Position numbers and translations under genes: made by a program | In this document: positions 18,127 through 21,972 of the stretch, in pieces | Position numbering within the stretch: the first letter of the stretch is position 1 | How the letters are laid out: each line of letters starts with the position of its first letter | Notes under the pieces: model-generated | Database searches by the model: none | What the model was told of the DNA's origin: nothing | What the model saw: only the letters and a program-made list of their open reading frames with translations | NCBI RefSeq assembly: GCF_000814005.1 | Contig: NZ_JWLK01000005.1 | Location: 186,001 to 250,000 of the forward strand | Source: Ruegeria sp. ANG-S4 | Lineage (GTDB): Bacteria; Pseudomonadota; Alphaproteobacteria; Rhodobacterales; Rhodobacteraceae | Length of the DNA: 64,000 bases | Direction: 5' to 3'

Positions 18127-18687
18127 TCAGTCACCTCGCAACAGCGCCGCGACGCCGGTGCGTGCAACTTCCACCAAGCCCAACGGGCGCATCAGGTCGG
18201 CGAAGGCATCAATTTTGTCCGGGGCGCCGGTGATCTCAAAGATGAAGGAGTTCAGAGTGCTATCCACAACATTCGCCCGGAAAATATCTGCGAGTCGAAG
18301 CGCTTCGACCCGTTTTTCCCCTTCTCCAACCACCTTGATGATGGCCAGTTCCCGCTCGACCGATGGTCCTTCCACCGTCAGGTCGTGCACGTCGTGCACG
18401 GGCACAATCCGACCCAGCTGCGCCTTGATCTGTTCGATCACCTGCGGGGTGCCGGTGGTGACGATGGTAATTCGGCTCAGATGACCGGTGTGGTCCACCT
18501 CGGCCACGGTCAGGCTTTCGATGTTATACCCGCGCCCCGAGAACAGACCGATCACGCGGGCAAGCACGCCGGGTTCGTTTTCGACAAGCAGCGCAAGTGT
18601 GTGACGCTCCTGCGTGTCTGAAAAAGTAGGACGAAGGTTATAGGCCGAGTGGCGGGTTGAGCCTTTGACGATGTTTAGCGGGGTCAT
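18127..18687 (-). CDS. ilvN: Acetolactate synthase small (regulatory) subunit
   Basis: 186 residues from the ATG at 18687 (AGGA 6 nt upstream), the usual size for the alphaproteobacterial subunit. It holds an N-terminal ACT domain (LALLVENEPGVLARVIGLFS with the GRGYNIESLTV valine-binding loop) and a C-terminal ACT-like domain (ERELAIIKV onward). It activates IlvB and confers feedback inhibition by valine. A longer ORF from 18756 exists but that start lies inside the upstream gene and lacks support. The ATG overlaps the stop of the GT87 gene (ATGA), so ilvN is translationally coupled to that gene and not directly to ilvB. Confidence 0.96.
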   Translation of the reverse strand: MTPLNIVKGSTRHSAYNLRPTFSDTQERHTLALLVENEPGVLARVIGLFSGRGYNIESLTVAEVDHTGHLSRITIVTTGTPQVIEQIKAQLGRIVPVHDVHDLTVEGPSVERELAIIKVVGEGEKRVEALRLADIFRANVVDSTLNSFIFEITGAPDKIDAFADLMRPLGLVEVARTGVAALLRGD

Positions 18688-19952
18688 GGATTTTCCTGTG
18701 AAGCAAAAGGAGCGGGAAAAGGGGACCGTATGCGGCGGACAAGTGCCGTGACGCAAACGACGATGGCGGCCAACGCGACCGGAGCGAAGAAAAACCTAAC
18801 GGATAGAAAACTGATATCAGTCAGCAGCAAAATCGCGATAGCGGGGGCAAGCCCCAACCACATAAGCGCGGCCAGTAGAAGCCCAAAGCGGCTCTCTGTC
18901 AAAACACCGGCCCTTAGCAAGAACAACGACGCGGGCGCAAGTATGGCCGTTTCGTAGTGCCAGAAGTAAGGGCTTGAAACCATGATCCCCAAAAGCAAGG
19001 TTGCGGCCCGTAAGTCGAATTCGATTTTTGGGTTAGACCAGGCAACCGCTATGGTCGCGGCGGCCAAGGCAGTGGTCGTCCACTGAGCAGAGAGCGCCCA
19101 AGGCTCTGGGAAGCCGATCCCGGCAAGCACAGAATACACGCTAGTCATCTTATGCGTTTCAATTGCGGCGTCTCGTATGCGCTCAAAGTGGTGCTGAGCG
19201 AGGCTATTCATTTCGATCCAATAATCCACACCCATTATGAAGGTGGATATCGCGGCCAACAAAATCGTTGTCACCGCAGCAGAAACGACAGTGCGCCACG
19301 CGAAACACGCCAAAAGGGCCACTGGAATCAAGAGACCCAACTGAGGTTTCAAGGTCAGGAAACCAATCAAGACACCTGCCATGACCGGTCGGCCTCCGCG
19401 AAGGGCCGCCAGTGCCGCAAGCAGGCAGGCGATCCACAAGACGCTGGTCTGTCCTACGATGAGCGCGGGAAACGTTGCCGGCGCGAAACCAAAACCGATC
19501 CAAACTGGGGTGACGCCACCAGCGAAAGGGCGGACGGCAGCAAGCATAGCCAAGCTCGACAGCCCGATAAAAATCACCCACGCGACCGGAAATGAAAAAG
19601 CACCAAGAGGCAGAATCGCAAGCATAAAGCCGGGCGGGTAAAGCCAGGGCATCCAAAAGTCGCCTTGTACGCCGTGCACTGCCGCCAGGTTGTCTGGATC
19701 AAAGGCGGCCACTGGGTCGCCGGCAAATGCCAATTTTGCTGCAGACCAAAAGACCGTGAAATCAATGGCCAGTGCGTCGTGATCGCCGGTGACAATTTCC
19801 CGCCAGCTATTCCCAACCCAGATGATGACCACGATCACAAAAAAGGCGGGAACCAATGCACCCAATTGCCAGCCGCGCCTGGAATCAAAAATCCTTAGGC
19901 GCGCATCTGCTGCGGACTGACCCGCATTGGATGGCAAGGTTTCGCGATGCAT
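18684..19952 (-). CDS. GT87-family (DUF2029) membrane glycosyltransferase
   Basis: 422 residues, with ten or more predicted transmembrane helices and a GT-C type layout: a periplasmic first loop containing DFTVFWSAAKLAFAGDPVAAF (acidic residues near 70) and the WMPWLYPPGF segment typical of the DUF2029/GT87 family. Family members use polyprenyl-phosphate sugars, for example polyprenyl-phosphomannose in mycobacterial mannosyltransferases; acceptor and sugar are unknown here. It lies 68 bp after ilvB and overlaps ilvN by 4 bp, so it is probably transcribed from the attenuated ilv promoter, although its function has no obvious link to branched-chain amino acids. Confidence 0.78.
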   Translation of the reverse strand: MHRETLPSNAGQSAADARLRIFDSRRGWQLGALVPAFFVIVVIIWVGNSWREIVTGDHDALAIDFTVFWSAAKLAFAGDPVAAFDPDNLAAVHGVQGDFWMPWLYPPGFMLAILPLGAFSFPVAWVIFIGLSSLAMLAAVRPFAGGVTPVWIGFGFAPATFPALIVGQTSVLWIACLLAALAALRGGRPVMAGVLIGFLTLKPQLGLLIPVALLACFAWRTVVSAAVTTILLAAISTFIMGVDYWIEMNSLAQHHFERIRDAAIETHKMTSVYSVLAGIGFPEPWALSAQWTTTALAAATIAVAWSNPKIEFDLRAATLLLGIMVSSPYFWHYETAILAPASLFLLRAGVLTESRFGLLLAALMWLGLAPAIAILLLTDISFLSVRFFFAPVALAAIVVCVTALVRRIRSPFPAPFASQENP

Positions 19953-20020: not shown

Positions 20021-21772
20021 TCATACAAGAACCGAACCTTTGGAGTCGATCACGCCTTGGGTTTCGGCCTCGCCCAACAGCATCTCGTTATGCGCTTTGC
20101 CTGACGGGATCATGGGGAAGCAGTTTTCGTGTTTTTCCACCACACAGTCGAAGATCACCGGCCCGTCGTAGTTGATCATTTCCATGATTGCGTCGTCCAG
20201 ATCGGCTGGGTCGGAGCACAGGATACCCTTGGCGCCGAAGGCTTCGGCGAGCTTGACGAAATCCGGCAAGGCCTCGGACCAGGAATGCGAATAGCGTTCA
20301 CCATGCAGAAGTTCCTGCCATTGGCGCACCATGCCAAGGCGTTCGTTGTTCAGGATGAATTGTTTGACCGGCAAACGATACTGAACGGCGGTTCCCATTT
20401 CCTGCATGTTCATCAGCCATGATGCCTCGCCGGCCACGTTGATGACCAGAGCATCAGGATGAGCCATCTGCACGCCCACCGAAGCCGGAAAGCCATACCC
20501 CATGGTGCCGAGCCCACCGGATGTCATCCAACGGTTGGGATCTTCAAAACCCAAATACTGCGCGGCCCACATCTGGTGTTGGCCGACCTCGGTCGTGATA
20601 TAACGGTCATGGTTTTTGGTCAGTTCCTCAAGCCGCTGCAACGCGTGCTGGGGTTTGATCGTCTTTTCGCTGGCGGTGTAAGCCAGACAGTTGACCTTGC
20701 GCCAGCCGGCGATTTGGCTTTGCCATTGCTTGACGTTTGCCGCGTCAGTTTTGCGACCACGAGCCTTCCAGACCTTCAGAACATCTTCCAGAACATGGGC
20801 CACGTCGCCCACGATGGGAATGTCCACACGGATCACTTTGTTGATCGACGAGGGGTCAATGTCGATATGTGCCTTCTTCGAATTTGGAGAGAAGGCGTCG
20901 ATCCGGCCGGTGATCCGGTCGTCGAACCGGGCGCCGACATTGATCATCAGGTCGCAGTCATGCATTGCAAGATTGGCCTCATAAAGGCCGTGCATGCCCA
21001 GCATTCCCAACCAGTTCTCGCCCGAAGCCGGATAGGCGCCCAGCCCCATCAAGGTCGACGTGATCGGAAATCCGGTCGCATCAACCAGTTCGCGCAGCAA
21101 TTGGCTGGCTGCCGGACCCGAATTGATGACACCGCCGCCTGTGTAGAAGACCGGCTTTTTGGCGGTTTCTATTGCCGCGACAAGTTCGGTGATCTCTTCC
21201 AGATCGCCTTTCAGAACCGGCTGGTAGTGCGAAGTTGACGGCTTGGGGGTGCTGTATTGGCCAGTGGCGAACTGAACGTCCTTTGGAATGTCGATCAACA
21301 CCGGACCCGGGCGGCCGGATGTGGCGACGTGAAACGCCTCGTGCATTGTGGAGGACAAAGAATCCGTGTCCTTGACCAACCAATTGTGCTTGGTGCAGGG
21401 GCGGGTGATGCCAACGGTGTCAGCCTCCTGAAACGCATCCGATCCGATCATGAACGTCGGTACCTGTCCGGTCAGAACAACAATCGGGATCGAGTCCATC
21501 AGCGCATCGGTCAACCCGGTTACGGCATTTGTGGCGCCCGGGCCGGATGTCACCAGCGCAACACCGGGTTTGCCGGTCGAGCGGGCATAACCTTCGGCCG
21601 CGTGAACCGCGCCTTGTTCGTGGCGCACCAGAATGTGGCGAATATCGTTTTGCAGAAAAATCTCATCGTAGATCGGTAGGACGGCGCCGCCCGGGTATCC
21701 GAATACTGTGTCCACGCCCTGATCCTTGAGGGCCTGAACCACCATCTTTGCGCCGGTCATCTCACGTGTCAT
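20021..21772 (-). CDS. ilvB: Acetolactate synthase large (catalytic) subunit
   Basis: 583 residues from the ATG at 21772 (GGAG 8 nt upstream). ThDP-, FAD- and Mg-dependent enzyme that condenses pyruvate with pyruvate or 2-ketobutyrate, the first common step of valine, leucine and isoleucine synthesis. Visible are VFGYPGGAVLPIYDE, the catalytic glutamate in LVRHEQGAVHAAEGYA (about residue 50), TSGPGATNAVTGL, and the ThDP motif from GLGTMGYGFPASVG to the downstream Mg-binding region ending NNERLGMVRQWQE. A longer ORF from 21844 would start inside the attenuator and is rejected. It is first in the operon with the GT87 gene and ilvN. Confidence 0.97.
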   Translation of the reverse strand: MTREMTGAKMVVQALKDQGVDTVFGYPGGAVLPIYDEIFLQNDIRHILVRHEQGAVHAAEGYARSTGKPGVALVTSGPGATNAVTGLTDALMDSIPIVVLTGQVPTFMIGSDAFQEADTVGITRPCTKHNWLVKDTDSLSSTMHEAFHVATSGRPGPVLIDIPKDVQFATGQYSTPKPSTSHYQPVLKGDLEEITELVAAIETAKKPVFYTGGGVINSGPAASQLLRELVDATGFPITSTLMGLGAYPASGENWLGMLGMHGLYEANLAMHDCDLMINVGARFDDRITGRIDAFSPNSKKAHIDIDPSSINKVIRVDIPIVGDVAHVLEDVLKVWKARGRKTDAANVKQWQSQIAGWRKVNCLAYTASEKTIKPQHALQRLEELTKNHDRYITTEVGQHQMWAAQYLGFEDPNRWMTSGGLGTMGYGFPASVGVQMAHPDALVINVAGEASWLMNMQEMGTAVQYRLPVKQFILNNERLGMVRQWQELLHGERYSHSWSEALPDFVKLAEAFGAKGILCSDPADLDDAIMEMINYDGPVIFDCVVEKHENCFPMIPSGKAHNEMLLGEAETQGVIDSKGSVLV

Positions 21773-21813
21773 CTGCTTTGCTCCGTTCGCGACATGTGTC
21801 TTGCGTTTAGCAT

Positions 21814-21840
21814 AAAAAAAGCCCCCGATTTTTCGGAGGC
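21814..21840 (-). terminator. Rho-independent attenuator terminator of the ilv operon
   Basis: On the minus strand GCCTCCGA - AAAA - TCGGGGGC forms an 8-bp stem (one G-U pair) followed directly by seven T residues (21820 down to 21814). It lies between the leader peptide and the ilvB start codon, 42 bp before the ATG, where it can end transcription prematurely. It is the clearest intrinsic terminator in the window. Confidence 0.88.
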
Positions 21841-21881
21841 GCATGGGTTCGATTATGGTTTACCGTTACCGGCCCATGCGC
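21839..21881 (-). promoter_or_regulatory. Competing (antiterminator) hairpin in the ilv leader
   Basis: A perfect 9-bp inverted repeat, GCGCATGGG (21881-21873 on the minus strand) with CCCATGCGC (21847-21839). The first arm lies within leader-peptide codons 11-14. The second arm overlaps the 5' edge of the terminator stem, and pairing could extend past one mismatch into its first four bases. A ribosome stalled at the Val/Leu/Ile codons leaves the first arm free to pair; a ribosome reaching the stop codon covers it. Confidence 0.7.
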
Positions 21882-21913
21882 GTCTTTCCTACGATTACGA
21901 CTAGCGCTTTCAT
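21866..21913 (-). CDS. ilv operon leader peptide
   Basis: A 15-residue ORF, MKALVVIVGKTRMGR, with a strong Shine-Dalgarno sequence (AAGGAG, 21928-21923, 9 nt before ATG). Codons 4-8 are Leu-Val-Val-Ile-Val, exactly the amino acids made by the downstream pathway. It is followed by a competing hairpin and a rho-independent terminator. This is the arrangement of a ribosome-mediated transcription attenuator, as in enterobacterial ilvBN and ilvGMEDA; similar ilv attenuators have been predicted in alphaproteobacteria. Its job is to sense charged Val/Leu/Ile tRNA levels by ribosome stalling. Confidence 0.88.
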   Translation of the reverse strand: MKALVVIVGKTRMGR

Positions 21914-21945
21914 CGCCAGAGGCTCCTTTTCTGCTTGCAGGCGAC

Positions 21946-21972
21946 ATTATGGGCGGCAAGTGGGGGCGTCAA
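21946..21972 (-). promoter_or_regulatory. Candidate promoter of the ilv leader transcript
   Basis: On the minus strand TTGACG (21972-21967) and CATAAT (21951-21946) each match the sigma-70 consensus at 5 of 6 positions; the spacer is 15 bp, shorter than ideal. A start site near 21938 would leave a short 5' UTR before the leader ORF Shine-Dalgarno, as expected for an attenuator. Confidence 0.5.

Follow-up and report, generated by a model that had tools for sequence, protein, structure and literature searches.

A predicted ribosome-mediated attenuator with branched-chain amino acid codons upstream of ilvB in Ruegeria sp. ANG-S4, and related leaders before Bcr/CflA-type transporter genes

The window analysed here, a stretch of 64,000 nucleotides to which all positions refer, carries on its minus strand the gene ilvB, coding for the large subunit of acetolactate synthase, and further downstream the gene of the small subunit. 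IlvB was 97% identical to its counterpart in Ruegeria atlantica, the nearest named relative among the matches listed. Its start is likely the ATG at 21772, at which the alignments with most named relatives also start. A gene for a GT87 glycosyltransferase-like membrane protein (18684-19952) lies between ilvB and the small-subunit gene. The two synthase genes and the elements recognised upstream of ilvB are as follows, each with the evidence on which it was assigned.

18127-18687, minus strand: acetolactate synthase small-subunit gene (ilvN/ilvH), downstream of ilvB; Pfam ALS_ss_C and ACT_AHAS_ss
20021-21772, minus strand: ilvB, acetolactate synthase large subunit, 583 amino acids; Pfam TPP_enzyme_N, M and C
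21967-21972, minus strand: -35-like TTGACG of the putative leader promoter; sequence, with a conserved TTGAC position
21946-21951, minus strand: -10-like CATAAT, separated from TTGACG by a 15-nt spacer; sequence
21923-21928, minus strand: Shine-Dalgarno-like AAGGAG of the leader ORF; sequence
21866-21913, minus strand: leader ORF MKALVVIVGKTRMGR*, 15 codons, with its ATG at 21913 and stop codon TAA at 21868-21866
21890-21904, minus strand: regulatory codons CTA GTC GTA ATC GTA (Leu Val Val Ile Val); codon conservation
21873-21881, minus strand: 5' arm of hairpin P1, GCGCATGGG, within the last leader codons; sequence and comparison
21863-21872, minus strand: small hairpin P2, CCG-GUAA-CGG, whose GNRA-type loop contains the stop codon of the leader; pairing and covariation
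21839-21847, minus strand: 3' arm of P1, CCCATGCGC, forming 9 bp with GCGCATGGG; sequence and comparison
21839-21840, minus strand: two nucleotides claimed by both P1 and the terminator base, the P1 partner of 21839 being a wobble G
21821-21840, minus strand: terminator hairpin GCCTCCGA-AAAA-TCGGGGGC, 8 bp including one G-U; terminator scan and covariation
21814-21820, minus strand: T7 tract of the terminator; sequence and terminator scan

The promoter pair, AAGGAG, the 15-codon ORF, the 9-bp hairpin and the 8-bp terminator with its T7 tract all read as the initial annotation had described them. The terminator scan recovered the hairpin at 21840-21821 together with T7, and the transcription start is predicted near 21939. 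Zero sites were listed at the leader promoter by the promoter scan; the 15-nt spacer falls outside its accepted range of 16-18. At the gathering threshold, Rfam gave no match anywhere in the window; this would extend to the motifs ilvB-OMG and ilvB-II if Rfam contains them. The region displayed the components of a ribosome-mediated attenuator for branched-chain amino acids (BCAA), i.e. a leader ORF with ribosome binding site and cognate codons, a pathway gene and an intrinsic terminator.

Conservation was followed in 143 ilvB upstream regions, all belonging to family f1. This sample was not random: it was composed of the window, the best 80 of at least 596 matching stretches (named loci), two regions from a class-wide draw and 60 from an order-wide draw, the latter hand-picked from the lower-identity part of a 158-genome list. 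The same species may occur twice, and three regions were exact duplicates. Leader tail, P1 and terminator with T-run were common to 127 of the 143 regions (124 distinct rows and the 3 duplicates), which bears out the conservation of leader codons and stems in relatives that had been put forward as a check. Since the arrangement recurs to this extent, with TTGAC placed alike 84-95 nt before P1 in 113 of the 124 aligned rows, it goes beyond chance. In three rows, the last TTGAC was located 29-33 nt before P1, i.e. within the leader. The letters of the -10 core T-A-A-T were the commonest ones in 107, 114, 78 and 73 of the 124 rows, respectively (ungapped columns).

Covariation was counted on the 124 rows, which were selected by a pattern including the P1 core. 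The 19 regions omitted consisted of 10 diverged ones, 1 cut by a contig end (L040), 5 without the element and the 3 duplicates. The diverged regions (L067, L069, L071, L152, L160, L161, L173, L190, L191 and L198) displayed a leader and hairpins with altered sequence. Two covariance models were built, R1 from the 124 ilvB leader rows and R2 from twelve transporter-type copies alone (see below). They clearly matched L069, L161, L173, L190 and L191, and weakly L067, L071, L152 and L160; the match to L198 was not significant. No recognisable element was found upstream of ilvB in L022, L053, L192, L195 and L200, where R1 and R2 were silent up to E 1. The three members of genus g172 that were read (L192, L195 and L200), together with L053, have no attenuator and retain a promoter-like TTGAC a short distance before ilvB, which would fit a loss of the leader.

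At E <= 0.01, R1 matched 179 of the 198 genomes of family f1, with positions relative to ilvB checked for part of them, but this threshold is unspecific, as 161 of 385 class genomes pass it too. At 1e-10 or better, 158 of the 198 were retained (our own count of the table). The class-wide draw comprised 133 other genomes with IlvB; among 59 further upstream regions read from it, the RMGR leader was found in two only, both from family f1. One genome (G590, with locus L259) displayed two R1 matches of 81.4 and 65.5 bits, the second of which precedes an ilvB-like gene; the pair may reflect duplication or contamination. Other BCAA leaders were also encountered. L129 (G189), from another alphaproteobacterial family, carried a different one, MSLLIVPCAPNEGLA*, 5' of ilvB with its own hairpin and terminator, as well as a weak Atu_C8 match (32 bits). 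Loci L100 and L110 carried other short BCAA-rich ORFs upstream of ilvB (MNRTLVLIPWSLSEWS and MTTQLVLIRQPLSGRD), and no run of five T was found there.

The five consecutive Leu/Val/Ile codons reported in the initial annotation were present. At positions -8 to -4 from the RM codons, Leu, Ile or Val occurred in 124, 123, 119, 120 and 118 of the 124 rows, thus in at least 118 at each position, and dropped to 15 rows at -9 and 6 at -3. The five positions keep a fixed three-codon distance from P1. Rare codons were enriched: CTA represented 44% of leader Leu codons, versus 1.9% in background ORFs of the window and 2.8% in those of the 80 loci, and GTA 51% of leader Val codons, versus 5.1% and 7.9%. 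Rare control codons raise the sensitivity of the Salmonella leu attenuator, according to the excerpted text of PMC1183508. An in-frame start precedes the regulatory codons in all 124 rows (ATG in 103, GTG in 14 and TTG in 7). An N-terminal extension of IlvB from the ATG at 21844, inside P1, was considered and rejected because its frame is not conserved: the ORF from this position was in frame with ilvB in 35 of the 124 rows, 21 of which were open.

The compensatory changes that had been expected in both stems were observed in the terminator and not in P1. For the terminator, 31 cells were changed on both sides of a pair, versus 11.6 in shuffles, and none of 500 shuffles reached 31; 25 of these cells belonged to the loop-closing pair, which does not form in 39 rows. 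P1 was 98.7% paired in the 124 rows, themselves selected by its core, and lacked statistical covariation because it hardly varies (73 of 500 shuffles reached the observed count). For P2, all three pairs were found in 119 of the 124 rows when loops of 3-9 were allowed; on fixed columns, 10 both-side cells were counted versus 1.0 in shuffles, a value reached by 0 of 500. The minimum-energy fold of the window prefers another inner pairing over P2, and the RNAalifold consensus contained P1 and the terminator, with P2 absent.

Better evidence for P1 is provided by the diverged members than by the 124 pattern-chosen rows. In L069 and L191, a P1-like stem was rebuilt from other sequence and still reached the terminator base. 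In L173 and L190, the leader ends at an in-frame TAG ahead of the RM tail, yet the sequence of the P1 arm is still present, as would be expected if the tail were conserved for its RNA and not for its peptide. Given these two loci, a function of the conserved RMGR peptide is unlikely.

P1 and the terminator share 2-4 bases: the two basal nucleotides of the terminator in the window, and three bases in relatives with TGG, AGG or GGG before RMGR. Like the leader, its codons, the terminator and P2, this overlap and its conservation were read directly from the aligned sequences. The codon before RM ended in a wobble G in 123 of the 124 rows (55 of 56 after reduction to <80% identity), yet it encoded 12 amino acids, with Trp (TGG) in 37 rows. 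This G, which was not in the pattern that selected the rows, pairs with the second base of the terminator.

The initial annotation had also predicted that pairing of the two outer arms competes with the terminator. At equilibrium this competition is weak, since P1 and the full terminator coexist: for the closing pair of the window terminator, the probability was 0.85 when P1 could form and 1.0 when the 5' side was masked. Over the 124 rows, its median was 0.81 with P1 free (below 0.5 in 32 rows), and it exceeded 0.9 in 112 rows when masked. What stands is the overlap, and the competition would be kinetic. In folds ending before the terminator 3' arm exists, the two basal bases of the 5' arm were paired upstream with means of 1.0 and 0.99, and the next two at 0.47 and 0.08. 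Freeing the first four bases of the terminator cost 3.0-10.3 kcal/mol over the rows, with a median of 5.9 and a value of 5.8 for the window; the cost fell to 2.0 kcal/mol once the wobble G was changed in silico. Among diverged members, the hold on the terminator base amounted to 2.1-6.2 kcal/mol in L067, L069, L071, L173 and L191. It was small in L198 (0.2), L161 (0.6, a value for which the script misplaced the terminator), L190 (0.6), L160 (1.1) and L152 (1.2 kcal/mol). In the full-length window fold, the terminator 3' arm partly pairs with the 5' region, the whole transcript having a z-score of -3.02. Pairing of this arm and the U-tract with the Shine-Dalgarno region was rejected because it exceeded 0.5 in 43 of the 124 rows only (median 0.28), and also because the RNA it requires is not yet transcribed when the decision falls.

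Outside family f1, R1 gave twelve matches at E <= 1.5e-7 in the 385 class genomes. Eleven of them (L225-L234 and L236, 33.9-65.2 bits), in as many alphaproteobacterial genomes, immediately preceded an MFS gene. The twelfth (L235, 34.1 bits, E 8.8e-8, thus ranking above L236) was discarded as a generic terminator without leader. Five of the eleven MFS genes were scanned with NCBIfam TIGR00710 (Bcr/CflA efflux) and four passed; that of L236 remained just under the cut-off (195.7 vs 200.9). The MFS genes of L230 and L233 were recognised by sequence only. Weaker R1 matches (L237-L239, and L214-L217, L219 and L220 in the own genome) looked like generic terminators or coding sequence. Within family f1, the element was carried by 2 of the 19 transporter upstream regions read (L240 and L245), and it was absent upstream of the own genome's two transporter homologues (L256 and L257).

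Transporter-type leaders were mostly Val-rich (e.g. MNPKSVVVVVSRRCMVR and MTVTTVVVGAWRLDR), with L233 displaying one Val and L236 two before the arm. GTA represented only 8 of the 38 Val codons in the twelve transporter-type leaders (L240 of family f1 included), so they are less biased towards rare codons than ilvB leaders. The wobble G was invariant in these twelve copies, which were found by a model favouring this G or picked beside such matches. Five P1 pairs at the terminator end were kept in 11-12 of the 12 copies, the two middle pairs in 7 and 5; this retention of terminator-end pairs and not of middle ones was counted in favour of a P1 acting on the terminator base. In the reciprocal direction, R2 found the ilvB leader of the window with 58.2 bits (E 2e-17). 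Its sixteen best matches in the 385 genomes (E <= 2.4e-15) were the eleven transporter loci, which are found by construction, and the ilvB leaders of the five members of family f1, which are not; all five were at the IlvB places of those family members. Of the further R2 matches L276-L285, the two read (L276 and L277) looked like generic terminators or coding sequence. None of the strong R1 or R2 matches outside family f1 was located at ilvB in the 385 class genomes, among which Caulobacter may not be sampled.

Below the gathering score of 50, the window (21804-21914) matched RF02502 (Atu_C8) with 27.2 bits. This Rfam family is annotated as a Rhizobiales sRNA, but we interpret its consensus as possibly encoding a leader peptide rich in BCAA, MIILVVGPRMGRAV*, and it contains a T-run and a GCGCAUGGGC hairpin, the latter similar to that of the ilvB leader. 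Six copies above threshold (L201 and L207-L211) were found among 36 genomes of the family of G107. Each is followed by an MFS gene of the kind found behind the transporter-type elements, and that of L201 passes TIGR00710. R1 gave these copies 16.9-21.6 bits and R2 10-15 bits, L209 being missed by R2. In a class-wide draw, Atu_C8 matched 3 of 190 genomes at E <= 0.001, 1 of them above its threshold. Unlike in ilvB leaders, P1 and the terminator lie several bases apart in Atu_C8 copies, and their overlap is thus not universal among possible relatives. A pairing of GGAAGG with the terminator, seen by eye in these copies, failed across them. A shared origin of Atu_C8 and the ilvB leader is possible, and Atu_C8 may function as a leader attenuator and not as an sRNA in its own right. 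Sub-threshold matches to the Rfam families isrK, ar9, SpF41, OmrA-B and Spot_42 look like terminator or chance matches and were set aside.

It is probable, in our judgement, that ilvB is preceded by a ribosome-mediated transcription attenuator in which P1 holds the terminator base when the ribosome stalls. Ribosome footprint sizes imply that the 5' arm of P1 would be hidden entirely once a ribosome sits on the stop codon, and that, after a stall on the last regulatory codon, the edge of the ribosome would fall roughly at the start of P1. In intrinsic terminators, blocking the last pairs beside the U-tract should hinder termination. Having read the leader through to its stop codon, the ribosome would occupy the 5' arm of P1 as well as P2; with this arm covered, the terminator would close fully and the transcript would end at about 125 nt. 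A shortage of Leu-, Val- or Ile-tRNA would make the ribosome stall on the five regulatory codons, leaving the P1 arm free. P1 would then form while the 3' arm of the terminator is still untranscribed and hold the two basal nucleotides of the terminator. Since the held pairs must close next to the U-tract, the terminator would be left incomplete and RNA polymerase would read through into ilvB. In this scheme, P1 would itself be the antiterminator. Masking by the ribosome, kinetic blocking of the terminator and control by amino acids are inferred from this arrangement, and because the full terminator still forms at equilibrium, a strong switch would have to rest on kinetics.

A classical three-hairpin attenuator, where P1 would be a pause or protector hairpin and another antiterminator would pair with the terminator 5' arm on stalling, appears unlikely. 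P1 and the terminator can indeed coexist, just like the 1:2 and 3:4 hairpins of a classical attenuator, and in Atu_C8-type copies they do not overlap. Yet, in folds starting just before P1, no strong partner of the terminator 5' arm other than P1 was present, the wobble G pairing with the second terminator base in 123 of 124 rows would be left unexplained, and pairing of the terminator 3' arm with the 5' region is the minority case mentioned above (43 rows). No separate 2:3 antiterminator was found in the equilibrium folds of the 124 rows, where P1 was the sole consistent upstream partner; a weak or kinetic 2:3 pairing may exist at the ilvB leader.

Still less credible is a terminated leader acting mainly in trans, as a small RNA or leader peptide in the manner of rnTrpL/peTrpL from Sinorhizobium meliloti. 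Such a role could account for the strong conservation of the RMGR tail and P1, and the weak Rfam match belongs to an sRNA family. A dual-function attenuator RNA is moreover described in an alphaproteobacterium, in the part of PMC10117765 consulted. However, L173 and L190 keep the RNA arm and yet stop before the tail peptide, and rare regulatory codons with constant placement before ilvB fit action in cis. A constitutive terminator or chance hairpins without regulation would agree with the small equilibrium difference between masked and free P1 in the window, but conservation, rare codons, fixed spacing and covariation make this very improbable.

The favoured reading, P1 holding the terminator base, has to be seen beside systems already described. 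By the comparison of ilvB upstream regions, the BCAA leader-peptide attenuator of ilvB appears real, and its kind is already known. The initial annotation considered attenuation of ilv operons as known in enterobacteria and predicted in alphaproteobacteria, which understates earlier work: a passage of PMC4117421, citing Tarleton et al. 1994, treats attenuation of Caulobacter crescentus ilvBN as known. By that account, this operon, which likewise codes for acetolactate synthase in an alphaproteobacterium, has a Rho-independent terminator and a leader in which Ile and Val codons stand in tandem. Passages in PMC1273637 and PMC2573895, citing Vitreschak et al. 2004, mention a predicted alphaproteobacterial ilvB/ilvIH leader. 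In these passages, the ilvIH/ilvB elements are likewise leader peptides or cis-regulatory elements before acetolactate synthase genes, predicted by comparison. The ilvB-II motif of Corynebacterium, as given in the excerpted text of PMC10272879, also comprises a leader ORF (15-17 codons), P1, P2 and a terminator upstream of ilvB. Its antiterminator, according to the same excerpt, is formed by the lower terminator stem and the P1 loop region, whereas P1 itself reaches the terminator base in Ruegeria. No description of the same RNA on both ilvB and an MFS gene was found in the open literature, most subscription papers being outside this search. While BCAA attenuation is known, the architecture with a base-invading P1 and a stop-codon hairpin, as well as its sharing with transporters, look new.

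More tentatively, ilvB leaders, transporter-type copies and Atu_C8 could form one alphaproteobacterial RNA class, made of a leader ORF, a base-invading P1, a stop-codon hairpin and a terminator, which would report an unfinished leader. Within this reading, and with the same reserve, it would act on ilvB in Rhodobacteraceae as a switch sensing BCAA starvation, and elsewhere as a switch on a Bcr/CflA-type MFS transporter. Given their common Val codons, transporter copies may respond to valine or to translation inhibitors; through them, a switch sensing amino acids would be connected with a transporter from the Bcr/CflA efflux family. A possible function would likewise be offered for Atu_C8, listed in Rfam only as an sRNA. 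The arrangement suggests a minimal attenuator design in which the last two or three terminator pairs are held, instead of half of the terminator being hidden. Since P1 would form in every transcript on which no ribosome gets as far as the stop codon, a leader that is not translated should be ON, and the design predicts that loss of translation turns the gene on, not off. For Rhodobacteraceae, which are major marine bacteria, it would provide a concrete and testable control point of branched-chain amino acid synthesis.
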